Positions 7 to 56,865 of a DNA stretch of 64,000 nucleotides are shown one piece after another. The stretch is taken from positions 124,001 to 188,000 of the forward strand of contig OX097180.1 of NCBI GenBank assembly GCA_944407095.1. Direction: 5' to 3'. Each line of letters opens with the position of its first letter. Position 1 is the stretch's first letter. Both the position numbers and the translations under genes were made by a program. Below the pieces are notes generated by a model. That model was not told the origin of the DNA. It did no database searches and saw only the letters and a list, made by a program, of their open reading frames with translations. Source of the DNA: Candidatus Enterousia intestinigallinarum. GTDB taxonomy: Bacteria > Pseudomonadota > Alphaproteobacteria > Rs-D84.

Positions 7-693
7 TTATTGCACATATTGACAGGGACCACTTAATACGAAAGTACCTGAATTATCCTTATATGTTCTGTATTGTTCTGGTATGCCGGCTGAAATAGGG
101 CCGGCCTTGCAATTAGTAATATTTGTACTGGGGGCTTTTTCATTATCCGTCAGTAACACAAAGTTATTATGAGTCCACCCACACAACGGGGCATTGCCGT
201 AAGTGTTTACTACATTATTATCACAGGGGCACTTTGTGCACGCGCCGGATGTTGATTGACTCATTAGTTGCCGGCTGCCATAAAATGATACATCACAAAA
301 GCAATACAGGTTTTCACAAGTATAATTATATGTTCCATCACCATTATCAGTCATTCTATATGATTTACCATTTGTCTTATCTGCGACCGTAAGTTGATTA
401 GCATCTGCACATTTACACTTGTTGATTATGTCTAATGCTGCATTGTTTGCACAACAATATGTATAGTCAGATTCAATGCCCATAGTTCTGCATTGCTGAC
501 TTGTAACCATTGTGCCGTACATAGTGTTGCCATATCGATTTTTGCACCACGTCGAGCATTGTGGCGCAACGACATAATCACTGCCGGTCAATGGACATTC
601 GGCACCAAATCCAATATCGCTTATATAAACACCGGAATATACCGGTTTGGCATAAAGTGCCATTATTGCAATGATAATTGTTGATTTTTTCAT
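7..693 (-). CDS. Cys-rich secreted protein of unknown function
   Basis: 228 residues. The N-terminus has a short Lys pair and a hydrophobic stretch ending near YAKPVYS, consistent with a Sec signal peptide, so the mature protein is probably periplasmic or surface-exposed. The rest carries about 20 Cys, many paired (CC, CKC, CPC, CFC), and a DNGDGTYNYTC segment. This is the style of disulfide-rich modules seen in other proteins of this window (1390-residue protein, 429-residue protein, 159-residue protein). No enzymatic motif is recognised. The start is supported by an AAAAAGGGGACG Shine-Dalgarno region. The gene is preceded by its own promoter and a ~270 nt structured leader ending in a terminator directly before the ribosome-binding site, so expression is probably attenuated. 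Its stop lies at the window edge, so downstream context is unknown. Confidence 0.75.
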   Translation of the reverse strand: MKKSTIIIAIMALYAKPVYSGVYISDIGFGAECPLTGSDYVVAPQCSTWCKNRYGNTMYGTMVTSQQCRTMGIESDYTYCCANNAALDIINKCKCADANQLTVADKTNGKSYRMTDNGDGTYNYTCENLYCFCDVSFYGSRQLMSQSTSGACTKCPCDNNVVNTYGNAPLCGWTHNNFVLLTDNEKAPSTNITNCKAGPISAGIPEQYRTYKDNSGTFVLSGPCQYVQ

Positions 694-972
694 TTTTGCG
701 TCCCCTTTTTGCTAGCAAAACAAAACCGCCAAATCAGTGGCGGTCGGGGAGTTCAAAAAATCATAATCAAAGAAATGACCCCGCTGGCCTTTGGATAAAA
801 ATCCTGTTATATAACCAGCGGCTCCCCGACAAATAATCGGGGTATACAAAACACAAATGGCGCAACTGCGCCGCGTGTTTGTACAGCGGATTTATTTCAG
901 TGTATTAAACACTGCTTTGATTATGGGCTTTTTGACGACCCCGAACCCAGTATCCACCCGGATTCAAAAATT
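694..972 (-). promoter_or_regulatory. Structured 5' leader with attenuator-like terminator (copy 1)
   Basis: On the minus strand a ~270 nt leader runs from the promoter at 973-1001 to the ATG at 693. It holds a hairpin CAGTGT/ACACTG (897-913), a GGCGC/GCGCC hairpin (859-872), and three segments that can pair in two exclusive ways. Segment B with the last base of A side, 822-830, reads CTCCCCGAC on the plus strand and pairs either with 837-842 (TCGGGG) or with 743-751 (GTCGGGGAG). An inner hairpin CCGCTGG/CCAGCGG (781-787/815-821) sits inside the long-range pairing. An intrinsic terminator (716-744) follows, and the Shine-Dalgarno GGGGA lies ~15 nt further on. The same order occurs in the leader at 56551-56791. 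No known riboswitch family was recognised. Confidence 0.65.
716..744 (-). terminator. Leader-internal intrinsic terminator before the start codon
   Basis: Minus-strand hairpin ACCGCC/GGCGGT with a 9-nt loop followed by GTTTTGTTTTG. It lies between the leader and the ribosome-binding site of the Cys-rich gene, so it would abort transcription before the coding region unless prevented from forming. Confidence 0.7.
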
Positions 973-17852: not shown

Positions 17853-20800
17853 TTATTCCATACTGTCATCATATACAGAATAGGTTGTTCCACCAGAGTT
17901 CAACTTCAACGCACCTATACCACTGGCCCCCATATTTCCATAGAACGTTGTTCCATTGATACTTACGTTCAGGGACGGGGTAGTTTTCCGTTCACTGCGC
18001 AGATAAATCTTTTCACCGTTGACGTTCAACACACGTCCACAGTCACCGACTTCATCAGCACCGGCACCGGAACCTATCGTGGTCAACCCGTCATCACACG
18101 CATTGCGAACACCTGCGCTGCCCTGGGATACGGTGGATGCCGCCGCCCAATATCCGGCACCAACATCAGAACACGTTGTGTTGTTTGCCGTTGCGATATA
18201 TGAACCACCACCACAAGAAATCTTACAATCACTTGCCGTATCGTGGTTTGCGGCCGCGGTGCCACTGATTGTATAATTGGTCAAACAGTTGCTGTACGAA
18301 CTGATACTGCCCTGGGCGACACTGTGTGCACCGACGTACCAGTTACCAGCCGGCGTAGTACAACTTGTTGCGTTTGCCGTGGTAATTCTGGTACCCGCCG
18401 CACAACTGATTTTACAATCCGTTGATGCATCGTGGTCCGTACGCGTTGTTGTATTTGGCGTCGAATAATTCGTCAGGCACGCTTTGACCGTTTCGGTCGG
18501 TGTTGTTGAGCCCGCCGTCACACTGTGTGACGCAGTGTACCAACTGCCCGTTGGCGTTGTACACGCAGCATCTGCTGTTACCACACGGGTACCCGCCGCA
18601 CAAGTAATACTGCAATCAGATTTTGCATCGTGATTCGACGCTGCGGTACCACTGGTTGAATACCCCGACGGACACGCCGTACACGCCGACATTCCAGTTG
18701 ATGCCGCGTACGTATTGGCGGCGCAAACCGTACAACTGGTGGCGGTACTGTCATTTGAACCTTGGAAAGTACCAACCGCACACGCCGGACAGGTTATTCC
18801 GCTGACATACCGACCCGCATTTGCTGTTACCGTATTCACCGTTTGTGTACACGACGCATTATTAGTGCTGCAACCGGACTTGATTGTGCCGTCGCCAGTA
18901 CCAGCGCTGTTTGCATATGCAACATAACTACACGCCGGATTAGAGCACGAATTACACGTCACCTCATAGCATCCAGTTGGCTTTGTACACGCGGTCTGGG
19001 AACCGCCCCACGGCCGTGATTTTGTATTACTGTAACATTTTGTTATACCACCTTCGTTATCGTCATCAGAATTAGGATATCCCGACGGACACGCGCTGCA
19101 CGTTGTGCCGGCATCATAATATCCCGCATCAGCAGACACGGCAACAACCGGTTTGGTACAATTTGCGTTGTTGGTGCTGCATCCGGATTTAATTGTGCCG
19201 TCGCCAGTACCCGCACTGTTTGAATATGCAACATATGTACAAGCAGAACCTGAACACGTTCCCCATTCTGTCACAGCACTGCAGTTGTTTGGAACACTGC
19301 CGTTCACCTGGGAACCGGTCCACGCACGTGACTTGCTGTTACTGTAACAAGATGTAATAGCAGCAGCACCGGCATCTGAATTCGGATAACCAGACGGACA
19401 ATCTGTTGGTGCAGCCGTGCCACCAGTACAGTAATTATCCGCCGTACATTGTGAACAGGTCTGACCATTTACATATGCACCGGCCTTGGCCTGGAACGCG
19501 GTCGATATGTTGGATGCGCCCCACGCGGTTGCACTGGTTGCCGTTTGCTTTAATTGACCCGCACTGCAGTATGAACTGACTGATGTTGCCGCACGTGTTT
19601 GATTGCACTGAGTATAAGAAGTCCACCCAGTACCCCCATTACGTGTCCAACCCGATGTTTGTGCTGGGCAACTGTTCTGCACACCACCGCTGCAATACGT
19701 TGCACCCGTGCATTGTGATTGGCCGGTACAGTTATTACCACTGGTGTTACATCCGGTTGTATAGTATCCGCTGGATACCGTTTTGCACGCTGACGCACCC
19801 GCCGCACTGTACTTTGTGCGCCCACTGCATGCCGAACAAGATGACGTAGAACCATATGTAATCGTATGCGCCGCTTTATATGTACCCGCCGCACAGGTTG
19901 CTTGTGTTGCACTGTTCGCAGTACCAACATAATGTCCTGCCTCAACATCCATTTTACACCCACTTTGCGCGGATGTCGCCGCACCATCACGATAACCGGA
20001 CGGACACTGGCTGCGCGTACTGGTTGAACCATAATTTACTGTATGTGCCGCACGATAGTATCCGGTACCGACGGATGTACACGCCGCCTCTGCGGTTGCA
20101 ACGTACGTACCGCCCGCACAACTGGTTTTGCAGCCGCTTTCGGATGATGCCGCAGCACCATCGCGGTAATTTGCAGGGCACTGGCTGCGTGTACTGGTTG
20201 AGCCGTAATTCACCGTATGCGCACCCTTGTAATACCCAGTTCCAACAGATGTACATGCTGCATTCGCAGTTGCGACATAAGTCCCGCCCGCACAACTGGT
20301 CTTACAAGCATTTATATTTGCTGCCCCTGTACCATCGCGATAATTAGCCGGACACTGTGTCTGGGCGCTGTTGCTGGACTTGTAATATCCAGACGATACG
20401 GTCTTACAGGACGTTTGGCCTGTCAAATTCTGATATTGTGTTGATCCCGAACACGCCGTACAAGACGCAGCACCAGATGAACTATATGTACCGGCACCAC
20501 ACGTTGAACACGAAGATGTAGAACCATACTTTACCGTATGTGCGGCCTTATACCGACCACCAGCACAGGTTGATTGTGTCGCACTGTTAGCAGTAGCAAC
20601 ATAATGCCCCGCATCAACATCCATTTCGCACCCATTTACATTGGCTGCACCAGCACCGTCACGATACCCGGATGGACACTGTGTTTGGGCGCTGTTACTG
20701 GACTTGTAATATCCAGACGATACGGTCTTACAGGACGTTTGGCCTGTCAAATTCTGATATTGTGTTGATCCCGAACACGCCGTACAAGACGCAGCACCAG

Positions 20801-22025
20801 ATGAACTATATGTACCGGCACCACACGTTGAACACGAAGATGTAGAACCATACTTTACCGTATGTGCGGCCTTATACCGACCACCAGCACAGGTTGATTG
20901 TGTCGCACTGTTAGCAGTAGCAACATAATGCCCCGCATCAACATCCATTTCGCACCCATTTACATTGGCTGCACCAGCACCGTCACGATACCCGGATGGA
21001 CACTGTGTTTGGGCGCTGTTACTGGACTTGTAATATCCAGACGATACGGTCTTACAGGACGTTTGGCCTGTCAAATTCTGATATTGTGTTGATCCCGAAC
21101 ACGCCGTACAAGACGCAGCACCAGATGAACTATATGTACCGGCACCACACGTTGAACACGAAGATGTAGAACCATACTTTACCGTATGTGCGGCCTTATA
21201 CCGACCAGCGGCACAAGTTGACTGAGTTGAGCTGTTCGCTGTTGCAATATATTTACCCGCAGATACGCTTATTTGGCATTGCGACGCGGATGTTTTACCG
21301 GCTGTTGTATTTGCAGTATAACTGCCCGGACAACTGTTCTGAACACCACCGCTGCAATATGTTGCACCCGTGCATTGTGATTGATTGGTACAGTTATTGC
21401 CACTACTGTTGCATCCGGTTGTATAGTATCCGCTGGATACCGTTTTGCAAGACGACTGACCCGTCAAATTTTGATACTTTGTTCGCCCACTGCACGCACT
21501 GCACGATGCAGACGCCTGAGTGCCACTGCCGGCTTTATACGTACCGGCGGCACAAGCCGACCATACCGCATATACAGTATCATTTGCGTTAAATGTTATA
21601 CTGGTTGAACCCGATGTCGCGGTGCTGGACGTTGACCATCCCTTGAACACATATCCCGCACGATAGAATGATGTCGTTGCGCCACTGGCCAAAGAACAAG
21701 ATGTCCCCGGCGTACACTTCTTGGAACTTGGGGTTGTACCCAACCCACCATTCAAATTATATGTAATCGTAACCTCGTTCAGCTTTGGACACGCCGTTCC
21801 ACCGGTACAGGTATAATCCGACCCCATAACCGAGCAGGGACGACACGCATTTCCGGCCCTTGCGGTTGTATTACACGTGGTTGACGATGACGATGATGTC
21901 ATATAGTATCCAGACGCACAACTGGTGTACTTTTTATATGACGGACACGAATACCCCGCAGCCAGAGCATTCCCGGCAAAAATCAACATAAACAAACACG
22001 CTAAATAACGCAGAATTTTTGACAT
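17853..22025 (-). CDS. Giant Cys-rich repeat secreted protein
   Basis: 1390 residues. A signal peptide (MSKILRYLACLFMLIFAGNALA) precedes Cys-rich repeats. About residues 75-155 contain a Listeria-Bacteroides (InlB B-type, Flg_new) repeat: ITYNLNGGLGTTP, YRAGYVFKGWST and NDTVYAVWS. Most of the rest is made of 40-60-residue modules such as CAAGTYKAAHTITYGSTSSC, CSACSGRTKY and CKTVSSGYYTTGC, which resemble the ephrin-receptor-like/GCC2-GCC3 disulfide modules common in eukaryotic surface proteins. Three modules in the middle are nearly identical (108-residue period). The last ~60 residues form a distinct Cys-poor domain (NVNGEKIYLRSERKTTPSL, SVYDDSME). Likely a surface adhesin or structural protein. 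Monocistronic; no structured leader like that of the two smaller Cys-rich genes. Confidence 0.85.
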   Translation of the reverse strand: MSKILRYLACLFMLIFAGNALAAGYSCPSYKKYTSCASGYYMTSSSSSTTCNTTARAGNACRPCSVMGSDYTCTGGTACPKLNEVTITYNLNGGLGTTPSSKKCTPGTSCSLASGATTSFYRAGYVFKGWSTSSTATSGSTSITFNANDTVYAVWSACAAGTYKAGSGTQASASCSACSGRTKYQNLTGQSSCKTVSSGYYTTGCNSSGNNCTNQSQCTGATYCSGGVQNSCPGSYTANTTAGKTSASQCQISVSAGKYIATANSSTQSTCAAGRYKAAHTVKYGSTSSCSTCGAGTYSSSGAASCTACSGSTQYQNLTGQTSCKTVSSGYYKSSNSAQTQCPSGYRDGAGAANVNGCEMDVDAGHYVATANSATQSTCAGGRYKAAHTVKYGSTSSCSTCGAGTYSSSGAASCTACSGSTQYQNLTGQTSCKTVSSGYYKSSNSAQTQCPSGYRDGAGAANVNGCEMDVDAGHYVATANSATQSTCAGGRYKAAHTVKYGSTSSCSTCGAGTYSSSGAASCTACSGSTQYQNLTGQTSCKTVSSGYYKSSNSAQTQCPANYRDGTGAANINACKTSCAGGTYVATANAACTSVGTGYYKGAHTVNYGSTSTRSQCPANYRDGAAASSESGCKTSCAGGTYVATAEAACTSVGTGYYRAAHTVNYGSTSTRSQCPSGYRDGAATSAQSGCKMDVEAGHYVGTANSATQATCAAGTYKAAHTITYGSTSSCSACSGRTKYSAAGASACKTVSSGYYTTGCNTSGNNCTGQSQCTGATYCSGGVQNSCPAQTSGWTRNGGTGWTSYTQCNQTRAATSVSSYCSAGQLKQTATSATAWGASNISTAFQAKAGAYVNGQTCSQCTADNYCTGGTAAPTDCPSGYPNSDAGAAAITSCYSNSKSRAWTGSQVNGSVPNNCSAVTEWGTCSGSACTYVAYSNSAGTGDGTIKSGCSTNNANCTKPVVAVSADAGYYDAGTTCSACPSGYPNSDDDNEGGITKCYSNTKSRPWGGSQTACTKPTGCYEVTCNSCSNPACSYVAYANSAGTGDGTIKSGCSTNNASCTQTVNTVTANAGRYVSGITCPACAVGTFQGSNDSTATSCTVCAANTYAASTGMSACTACPSGYSTSGTAASNHDAKSDCSITCAAGTRVVTADAACTTPTGSWYTASHSVTAGSTTPTETVKACLTNYSTPNTTTRTDHDASTDCKISCAAGTRITTANATSCTTPAGNWYVGAHSVAQGSISSYSNCLTNYTISGTAAANHDTASDCKISCGGGSYIATANNTTCSDVGAGYWAAASTVSQGSAGVRNACDDGLTTIGSGAGADEVGDCGRVLNVNGEKIYLRSERKTTPSLNVSINGTTFYGNMGASGIGALKLNSGGTTYSVYDDSME
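20374..21208. repeat. 324-bp tandem repeat inside the giant Cys-rich gene
   Basis: Units at 20374-20697, 20698-21021 and a partial one at 21022-21208 are practically identical at the DNA level, including silent positions, with a 324-bp (108-codon) period. Flanking modules are related but diverged, so this is a recent in-frame amplification likely maintained by recombination. Confidence 0.9.
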
Positions 22026-55164: not shown

Positions 55165-55182
55165 ATCCGTTTTATACATAAA

Positions 55183-55278
55183 AATAATGCAAGGCCGATT
55201 ACCGTTATACCCACTGTAAATAAAAACAAAACCGCATCAGCGGTTTTATTTTTATTTATGGTCGGGGCGACAGGAATC
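55183..55278. repeat. Direct repeat copy 1 (tRNA-Pro 3' end remnant)
   Basis: 96 bp that match 55391-55486 with a single difference (A at 55201, G at 55409). The right end (55259-55278) equals the last 20 nt of tRNA-Pro plus CCA (minus strand), and it includes the tRNA terminator hairpin. Offset between copies is 208 bp. Confidence 0.9.
55221..55258. terminator. Terminator in repeat copy 1
   Basis: AAAACCGC-ATCA-GCGGTTTT hairpin with A/T tracts; identical copy at 55429-55466 ends tRNA-Pro. Confidence 0.8.
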
Positions 55279-55285
55279 CCGCGCG

Positions 55286-55311
55286 CACAACGATATATAA
55301 ATATCGTTGTG
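55286..55311. repeat. Perfect palindrome between the direct repeats
   Basis: CACAACGATAT-ATAA-ATATCGTTGTG, an 11-bp stem. It lies in the 112-bp unique segment 55279-55390. Confidence 0.7.
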
Positions 55312-55390
55312 GCTGTGGGGCATTCGTGACGTTTCGCACGGCGCACTGCTTGTGCTCAACTACTCATTGTCGAACCACTGCATTATTTTC

Positions 55391-55486
55391 AATAATGCAA
55401 GGCCGATTGCCGTTATACCCACTGTAAATAAAAACAAAACCGCATCAGCGGTTTTATTTTTATTTATGGTCGGGGCGACAGGAATC
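55391..55486. repeat. Direct repeat copy 2, including the tRNA-Pro 3' end
   Basis: Second copy of the 96-bp repeat; its right end is the 3' portion of the functional tRNA-Pro gene. This arrangement is typical of attachment-site duplication by an integrase, or of a local tandem duplication. Confidence 0.9.
55429..55466 (-). terminator. tRNA-Pro terminator
   Basis: AAAACCGC-ATCA-GCGGTTTT hairpin followed on the minus strand by a T-rich stretch. Confidence 0.8.
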
Positions 55487-55543
55487 GAACCTGCGACCCC
55501 TTGCACCCCATGCAAGTACTCTACCAGGCTGAGCTACGCCCCG
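55467..55543 (-). tRNA. tRNA-Pro (anticodon GGG)
   Basis: Minus-strand cloverleaf: acceptor CGGGGCG/CGCCCCG, discriminator A and encoded CCA, anticodon stem CTTGC/GCAAG with loop ATGGGGT giving anticodon GGG (reads CCC, CCU), T-arm GCAGG-TTCGATT-CCTGT. The 3' 20 nt are duplicated 208 bp away at 55259-55278. Confidence 0.95.
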
Positions 55544-56040: not shown

Positions 56041-56072
56041 AAACGAAACCGCCAATATGGCGGTTTTGTTTT
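56041..56072. terminator. Bidirectional terminator acpS/Cys-rich gene
   Basis: AAACCGCCA-ATA-TGGCGGTTTTG hairpin. Confidence 0.8.
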
Positions 56073-56550
56073 AATTGCTATAATAACAATCTGCTGTGTA
56101 CGTGTATGTTCCACTTGTGTCAGTTCCAGTTGTTCCGGACGGCAAATAACACGACGTAATCTCGGTTGAACCAGCCATAGACACCCCACTGTTTGGGCAC
56201 CGTGTACAACCAGAAGTGCCCGTTGTTGAACTGCCATAATATCCGGCGGCACATCTGAATTGAATTGACGATGCACACCTTGTTAAAGTTGCACAATATT
56301 TATATGTACGCCGTTCATAACCTGTTGCATATGCAGTCCAATTTGTGGATCGACAATTGAGTGATGTACATTGTGTACCACCACCAGCCATAACACAGGT
56401 TCCACCGGGGCAATCCGTGTCCACCGAGCACGCCAGTCCATCGGAAAGGCCGCCATCACAAATTCCACGTATACCAGCAACAGCAAACGTCGTACTCGAT
56501 ATAAATATGGGTATCGCAATAATTATAGTGGGTAAAATAAAATATTTCAT
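56071..56550 (-). CDS. Cys-rich secreted protein with structured leader
   Basis: 159 residues. Signal peptide (MKYFILPTIIIAIPIFISSTTFA). The mature part has ~16 Cys with repeating DTDCPGGTCV, CTSLNCRSTNW, CATLTRCASSIQFRC and GYYGSSTTGTSGCTRCPNSGVS. The CAAGYYGSS..CTRCP motif is shared with the 1390-residue protein, so these belong to one wider family of disulfide-rich surface proteins. Function unknown. Its 5' leader (56551-56791) is structurally similar to that of the gene at 7-693. Confidence 0.78.
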   Translation of the reverse strand: MKYFILPTIIIAIPIFISSTTFAVAGIRGICDGGLSDGLACSVDTDCPGGTCVMAGGGTQCTSLNCRSTNWTAYATGYERRTYKYCATLTRCASSIQFRCAAGYYGSSTTGTSGCTRCPNSGVSMAGSTEITSCYLPSGTTGTDTSGTYTYTADCYYSN

Positions 56551-56791
56551 AATTCAATCTCCTGATTTTTGTTGAAACAAAAAACCACCAGTTTTACTTG
56601 GTGGTCAGGAGGTTGACTACAATCATAGGAATTGTGCCGCGTATTTGATATTCCGCGACCCTCCTGACCCGAAAATCAGGAGTTTGTTTTTCGTCGTAAT
56701 ACTAAAACGGGCGCATTTTTGCGCGCCACAGGTTTATATTCCGACGCCTATGCACGGGTAGTCACACCCCATTGACGGAACACCCGTCAAC
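56551..56791 (-). promoter_or_regulatory. Structured 5' leader with attenuator-like terminator (copy 2)
   Basis: A ~240 nt minus-strand leader with the same order as copy 1. It has a 5' hairpin TTGACGG/CCGTCAA (56773-56791), a GGCGC/GCGCC hairpin (56709-56726), and segment 56660-56668 (CCTCCTGAC on plus) that pairs either with 56676-56682 (TCAGGAG) or with 56604-56612 (GTCAGGAGG). The inner hairpin (CCGC/GCGG, 56637-56656 region) sits inside the long-range pairing. An intrinsic terminator (56581-56606) follows, and the ribosome-binding site TCAGGAGA (56559-56566) is itself complementary to the CTCCTGA segment. Confidence 0.65.
56581..56606 (-). terminator. Leader-internal terminator before the Cys-rich gene
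   Basis: Minus-strand ACCACC/GGTGGT hairpin followed by TTTTTTG. It ends ~30 nt before the ATG. Confidence 0.75.
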
Positions 56792-56798
56792 GTTTTAT

Positions 56799-56827
56799 AT
56801 GTTATCGCATAGTATTTGAATATTCAA
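56799..56827 (-). promoter_or_regulatory. Promoter of the Cys-rich gene leader (copy 2)
   Basis: Minus strand -35 TTGAAT (56822-56827), 17-nt spacer, -10 TAACAT (56799-56804). It directly follows the terminator of the 795-residue protein gene. Confidence 0.55.
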
Positions 56828-56831
56828 GGCA

Positions 56832-56865
56832 AAATAAAAAACCGCATTTCGCGGTTTTTATTTTT
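56832..56865 (-). terminator. Terminator of the 795-residue protein gene
   Basis: AAAACCGC-GAAAT-GCGGTTTT hairpin with T-tract on the minus strand. Confidence 0.85.

Follow-up and report, generated by a model that had tools for sequence, protein, structure and literature searches.

A multi-copy structured leader in Candidatus Enterousia intestinigallinarum, probably a domesticated relative of temperate-phage antirepressor leaders

In phages P1 and P7, RNase P frees the antisense RNA C4, which covers the antirepressor SD (PMC5320573, PMC12197685), and the c4-a1b1 motif was listed by Weinberg (2010; PMC2864571). In Acinetobacter baumannii, C4-like Group 1 sRNAs were reported as sRNA genes that may have targets in trans (PMC5320573). 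A second catalogued RNA, sRNA-Xcc1 (RF02221), is an 88-nt Xanthomonas RNA described as an integron-encoded trans-acting sRNA (PMC2996969), and in the most widespread Xanthomonas cassette it lies upstream of symE in the same orientation, which was taken to suggest a divergent regulatory mechanism (PMC12444791). In this study, we compared both RNAs with a leader found in a stretch of 64,000 nucleotides of contig OX097180.1 from Candidatus Enterousia intestinigallinarum (the window). sRNA-Xcc1 was reportedly also the subject of a 2011 study by Chen.

The leader was singled out in a first-pass annotation, which described it as the second of two structured copies upstream of Cys-rich genes. The arms, hairpins and SD named there were all located on the minus strand in both copies, in the present one between 56827 and 56551. 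It starts with a promoter-like site (56799-56827) made up of TTGAAT at 56822-56827 and TAACAT within 56799-56806; the pattern TTGNNN-15..18-TANNNT occurs in 35/37 copies, with 7.6 expected from shuffled sequence. This is followed by hairpin P1 (GTTGACG/CGTCAAT, 56771-56791; helix 1, 98.8% paired, changes on both sides at 6/7 pairs) and by hairpin P2 (56755-56770), placed by alignment and pair counts, whose loop carries strand a1 (TGACTAC, 56758-56764). Strand b1 (CATAGG) is found at 56747-56752, and stem P4 (GTCG/CGAC, 56693-56745; helices 5 and 6) encloses the GGCGC/GCGCC hairpin GGCGCGCAAAAATGCGCC at 56710-56727 and then GTTTTAGTAT at 56699-56708. These contents of P4 are the positional counterpart of a CCGCA/TGCGG hairpin and TTTTTGTGCC in sRNA-Xcc1 leaders. 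Segment 1 (CTCCTGA, 56676-56682) is the alternative partner of segment 2 (GGTCAGGAGG, 56660-56669), which is SD-like and forms the 5' arm of the central stem P5 (helix 7, 99.6% paired). Hairpin H1 (56636-56659; helix 8) lies inside a three-way junction, and hairpin H2 (56620-56634) carries strand b' (CCTATG, 56624-56629) in its loop, as read from pair counts and sequence. Strand a' (GTAGTCA, 56614-56620) is the partner of a1 (helix 3, 100% paired, both-side changes at 5/6 pairs), and b' is that of b1 (helix 4, 98.9% paired, 5/5 pairs). Segment 3 (CCTCCTGACC, 56603-56612) is the 3' arm of P5 and, judged by pair counts and duplex energies, can alternatively cover the SD. An intrinsic terminator (CCACCA..TGGTGG with TTTTTT, 56578-56604; helix 10, covarying) precedes the SD (TCAGGAG, 56559-56565), which repeats part of segment 2. 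The ATG of the regulated gene (56071-56550, minus strand) comes right after the leader; the gene product is a secreted protein of 159 aa, 13 of them Cys, for which a Pfam scan returned no match. The leader folds with a z-score of -6.0, and none of 200 shuffles was equally stable.

A hairpin and U tract before the gene is the arrangement of an intrinsic attenuator. A U tract follows the core hairpin in 103/106 clade copies, compared with 5/68 sRNA-Xcc1 loci elsewhere. By sequence, P5 and the terminator share no more than 2 nt and can coexist, and we therefore claim no antiterminator. P5 opens with GGU and its 3' side runs on as ACC-ACCA; since these ends are acceptor-like, release of the leader RNA by RNase P-type processing, as in C4 (PMC5320573), would be plausible.

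BLAST of the own genome gave 9 matches to the window leader, and R1, a covariance model of the leader's 3' half built on subtype A, found 30 convincing copies in this 1.0-Mb genome. A further 2-3 copies were matched by RF02221 only, bringing the total to 30-33. To our knowledge, a structured leader present more than 30 times in 1 Mb would rank with the densest cis-regulatory RNA families. R1 also matched in 55/59 genomes of the genus, several with at least 38 candidates, and in a few genera of two other families of the same order, and had no match in 22 genomes elsewhere in the class. A pattern scan of GTDB contigs returned 64 stretches, nearly all from metagenome assemblies of uncultured Alphaproteobacteria, many of them from animal gut. 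The other copy in the window, of subtype C, lies at approximately 694-950 (minus strand) before a Cys-rich gene at about 10-693, with arms GTCGGGGAG (822-830) and CTCCCCGAC (743-751); a model built without it recovers it with an E-value of 2e-6. Some copies are unusual in their surroundings. At L142 (own genome, 973951) and L149 (902755), two near-identical small HTH genes lie behind clearly different subtype-B leaders, and L150 and L151, also in the own genome, have no credible ORF downstream and are possibly stand-alone RNAs or decayed loci. For L098 and L125, which carry the clade leader, the contig labels are Prevotella and 'bacterium Mgla'; the Prevotella contig is probably misbinned.

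An ORF of at least 60 aa begins 8-45 nt past the terminator (median 27 nt) in 94/106 copies. A Cys content of at least 4% was observed in 75/94 of the downstream proteins compared with 5/62 ORFs of the window, and a crude rule assigns a signal-like N terminus to 79/94. It had been proposed to look for the same leader before other Cys-rich genes; the model searches yielded about 30 more copies, mostly before such genes. Many genes behind the leaders are paralogous (AVTKC family, RCAAGYYG repeats), and others in the clade encode HTH proteins, an OMP and an N6 methylase. The window also contains a very long ORF at 17856-22025 with 102 Cys and a signal-like start, which ends shortly ahead of the RNase P RNA gene (22162); no leader copy was found upstream of this ORF by the model search. 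Elsewhere in the window, a direct repeat of about 100 bp (AATGCAAGGCCGATT..GGTCGGGGCGACAGGAATC) occupies 55180-55290 and 55390-55490, and its second copy runs into a tRNA gene (55470-55543). By its sequence, this repeat looks like an attachment-site duplication.

Applied to 35 full-length copies, RNAalifold recovered the hairpins and the two long-range pairings a1:a' and b1:b'. In a named structure of 54 pairs, 95.6% of cells are paired and 36 pairs show double changes. Double-changed cells numbered 246. Column shuffles gave 69.9 +/- 7.8, none of 500 reaching the observed count, and versions with slid partners never exceeded 35. As the aligned copies are related, the cell counts are not independent, a concern partly met by the slid controls and by the variety of pair types. 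The pairings a1:a' and b1:b' are the best supported, with up to four pair types per position and double changes at 10/11 pairs. In the clade, the upstream strands a1b1 thus pair with a'b' of the core as expected of a C4-type mechanism. Neither these two pseudoknots nor the promoter, the terminator, the roughly 30 further copies and the known relatives were part of the first-pass annotation. Its proposal of a selected structured leader upstream of the second Cys-rich gene is borne out by the compensatory changes in 35 copies together with the folding z-score, and we regard a real, selected, multi-copy leader as almost certain. It had taken covariation between the two copies of the window as direct evidence. 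This was overstated: the two belong to different deep subtypes (A and C), and the proof comes from the larger alignment.

By their arms, the copies fall into three subtypes, A (UCAGGAGG/CCUCCUGA), B (GGUUGGAGG/CCUCCAACC) and C (GUCGGGGAG/CUCCCCGAC). Segments 1, 2 and 3 vary together across them (segment 1 as CUCCUGA, CUCCAAC or CCCGA), in agreement with the suggestion that alternative helices have the 5' arm of the central stem in common. For the alternative helix itself, covariation holds across subtypes; inside subtype A, the segment 1:2 helix is nearly invariant, and its support comes from the cross-subtype comparison. The notion of an SD that repeats the switch arm and is able to pair with segment 3 is supported as well, to a degree that depends on subtype. 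Duplexes of the subtype-A segment 3 average -13.4 kcal/mol with subtype-A SDs and -8.6 with subtype-B SDs, and in subtype C (7 copies only) own arm and SD reach -12.3 compared with -9.95 kcal/mol when swapped, so the match follows subtype for A and C. In subtype B this signal is absent, own pairs being no better than swapped ones, and inside subtype A own pairs (-13.7 kcal/mol) are hardly better than swapped ones (-13.4 kcal/mol).

A search of Rfam with the window copy returned no family, and the region 56500-56860 had no match to RF02221 at E<=10. Three other copies of the own genome score 50.4, 49.2 and 39.4 bits against RF02221, all below its gathering threshold of 53 bits, and two copies from the genus exceed it with 57.8 and 55.5 bits. 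One own subtype-A copy reaches an E-value of 7e-4, and subtype C copies are matched by both R1 and RF02221 and thus act as intermediates. From these sequence links, the leader family is very likely homologous to sRNA-Xcc1, and the window copy, which has no RF02221 match itself, is therefore treated as a remote homolog and not as a formal member. Integron attC sites were also considered because sRNA-Xcc1 sits in cassettes; this reading was dropped, as the copies are dispersed on both strands, have their own promoter-like sites and contain helices that fit RNA logic.

RF02221 is present in 58/398 Pseudomonadota genomes, and this phylum search provided 68 sRNA-Xcc1 loci from outside the genus. 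Upstream they have a domain, absent from the Rfam model, in which strands complement the sRNA-Xcc1 3' strand. An ORF on the same strand usually begins after another 20-55 nt, and many loci repeat the upstream strands on either side of the SD. L187, for instance, has CGAAAAccccAATAGTAGCGG upstream and CGAAAAggaGAATAGTAGCC-ATG downstream, and in L176, a locus of the sRNA-Xcc1/symE type, the SD CTCACAGGAG stands opposite CTGTGAG in the RNA. The 3' strand pairs with its own upstream strand at -23.7 kcal/mol compared with -18.2 when swapped, and with its own SD region at -19.9 compared with -15.6 kcal/mol (0/10000 permutations as low in either case). At the 5% level per locus, the upstream signal is found in 37/68 and the downstream signal in 31/68 loci, the downstream repeat being weak or absent in several multi-copy genomes. 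This narrower duplex test replaced a wide-window own/swapped test and a direct-repeat similarity test, which were diluted by conserved GC-rich stretches and still beat all permutations. The downstream ORFs include Bro-N, KilA-N, P22_AR_N, Rha, SymE and HSDR_N, of which HSDR_N is a restriction gene and Rha, Bro-N and KilA-N, like Ant, are phage antirepressors. Named loci are the annotated ant genes of Haemophilus phage Aaphi23 and E. coli phage Rac-SA53 and, on plasmids, Rha in Providencia and BRO in Pseudomonas. Judged from these loci, sRNA-Xcc1 appears to be usually the 3' half of a larger leader. L176-L205 and L246-L249 offer a basis for extending the family and re-typing it as cis-regulatory. 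Within the window's genus, L161 (G020 C7 80229-80314) is a phage-style copy before a gene that is Rha-like by sequence resemblance, and it likely represents the ancestral form.

The C4 model RF01695 had no match in the window copy, nor in the clade copies and sRNA-Xcc1 loci scanned, cores included; phage Aaphi23 carries a true C4 at a separate position. A model of the sRNA-Xcc1 5' domain (R2), from which hairpin P1 is absent, matches upstream of the four named phage and plasmid antirepressor leaders (E 1e-12 to 1e-15) and also directly upstream of P1 c4 (E 4e-4). In the P1 sequence, TTGACAG and GTTAGTG occur both upstream of c4 and at the downstream SD. Because R2 matches before P1 c4 and C4 was not found at the sRNA-Xcc1 cores, we infer a shared leader plan, in which the 5' domains of C4 and sRNA-Xcc1 leaders are probably of common descent and the core would be either very divergent from C4 or replaced.

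Taken together, the leader is probably a chromosomally amplified, domesticated relative of temperate-phage antirepressor leaders of the P1 c4 and sRNA-Xcc1 kind. By sequence, the leader combines its own promoter-like site, a 5' domain with a1 and b1, and a three-way-junction core with a' and b', joined by the pairings a1:a' and b1:b'; next come a hairpin and, about 27 nt on, a gene on the same strand. Many of the relatives on phages and plasmids carry a repeat of a1b1 around the SD. There, a'b' therefore has two possible partners, the upstream decoy and the SD, and would hide the latter by pairing with it. In the window's clade this switch seems to have been rewired: the SD copies the central-stem arm, the following hairpin has been turned into an intrinsic terminator, and segment 3 would serve as anti-SD because the SD repeats segment 2. 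Two exact clade patterns had no match in IMG/VR viral contigs, which suggests that the rewired form may be chromosomal. Control in cis by pairing at the SD is fairly likely. For the assignment of the ON fold we lean only slightly towards an open state in which a1:a', b1:b' and segment 2:3 engage segment 3 and the read-through transcript is translated. In the closed state, segment 1 would take segment 2 and segment 3 would hide the SD; alternatively, the upstream part might be cut off, after which segment 3 covers the SD. Most transcripts would probably stop at the terminator, freeing an RNA of about 210 nt.

The compact pseudoknotted fold with its near-invariant junction nucleotides, and a terminator and an SD in one leader unit with many copies per genome, would also suit a riboswitch, in which a small molecule bound by the three-way junction sets segment 3 and the terminator. 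This is unlikely, however, since the downstream genes (Cys-rich secreted, HTH, OMP, methylase) have no metabolic theme and suggest no ligand, the relatives precede phage antirepressors and SymE, and in them the a', b' and SD strands co-vary per locus, which is antisense logic. If the copies formed a family of sRNA genes acting in trans, in the manner of the A. baumannii C4-like sRNAs, with the downstream gene incidental, the gene start at a fixed distance in 94/106 copies, the SD that matches the subtype in A and C, and the strong enrichment of one functional class of downstream genes would be hard to explain. We consider this reading quite improbable, although nearly all copies have a promoter-like site and a terminator, arm A fits any subtype-A SD about equally, so that released RNAs could reach many mRNAs, and A. 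baumannii provides a precedent (PMC5320573). That many downstream genes are paralogous could further point to a passive remnant that was carried along by gene duplication or by recombination among the paralogs. Compensatory changes in most helices, and the presence of this leader ahead of genes unrelated to one another (HTH, OMP, methylase), speak strongly against it, and it is disfavoured as very improbable.

Returning to the domesticated antirepressor-type leader, subtype-A arms fit all subtype-A SDs, and action in trans is therefore possible as well. It is tempting to speculate that the more than 30 leaders per genome act in cis while the terminated RNAs also act in trans on the common SDs of the same subtype, coordinating the repertoire of secreted Cys-rich proteins or making it exclusive; we regard this as a doubtful extension. 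On the preferred reading, two catalogued RNAs, C4 and sRNA-Xcc1, would be joined by a common leader plan, and sRNA-Xcc1, so far regarded as a virulence sRNA that acts in trans and has many predicted targets, would gain a specific candidate target in the adjacent downstream gene. A phage switch would have been adopted at large scale by uncultured gut Alphaproteobacteria for the control of secreted proteins.

In comparison with sRNA-Xcc1, of which the Rfam model represents the 3' half only, the clade leaders share the three-way-junction core, with its closing stem, tetraloop hairpin, second hairpin with the b' loop and a' as junction strand. They add hairpin P1 and the U-tract terminator, the tetraloop hairpin is shortened in subtypes A and B, and the SD imitates a stem arm and not a1b1 as in many sRNA-Xcc1 loci. 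Like P1/P7 c4, the leader would encode an antisense RNA in the manner of an antirepressor operon leader, with a' and b' complementary to the upstream a1b1. In P1, as read from its sequence, a' and b' of c4 are also complementary to a2b2 at the SD; the window copy has no such a2b2 flanks, which are present in many relatives, at its SD and does not preserve the C4 pairing in that form. Unlike c4, its targets are mostly secreted proteins and a terminator has been added. The C4-like Group 1 sRNAs of A. baumannii resemble it as a phage-derived antisense RNA family multiplied in one genome; unlike them, each RNA here serves as the leader of a single gene at constant spacing.
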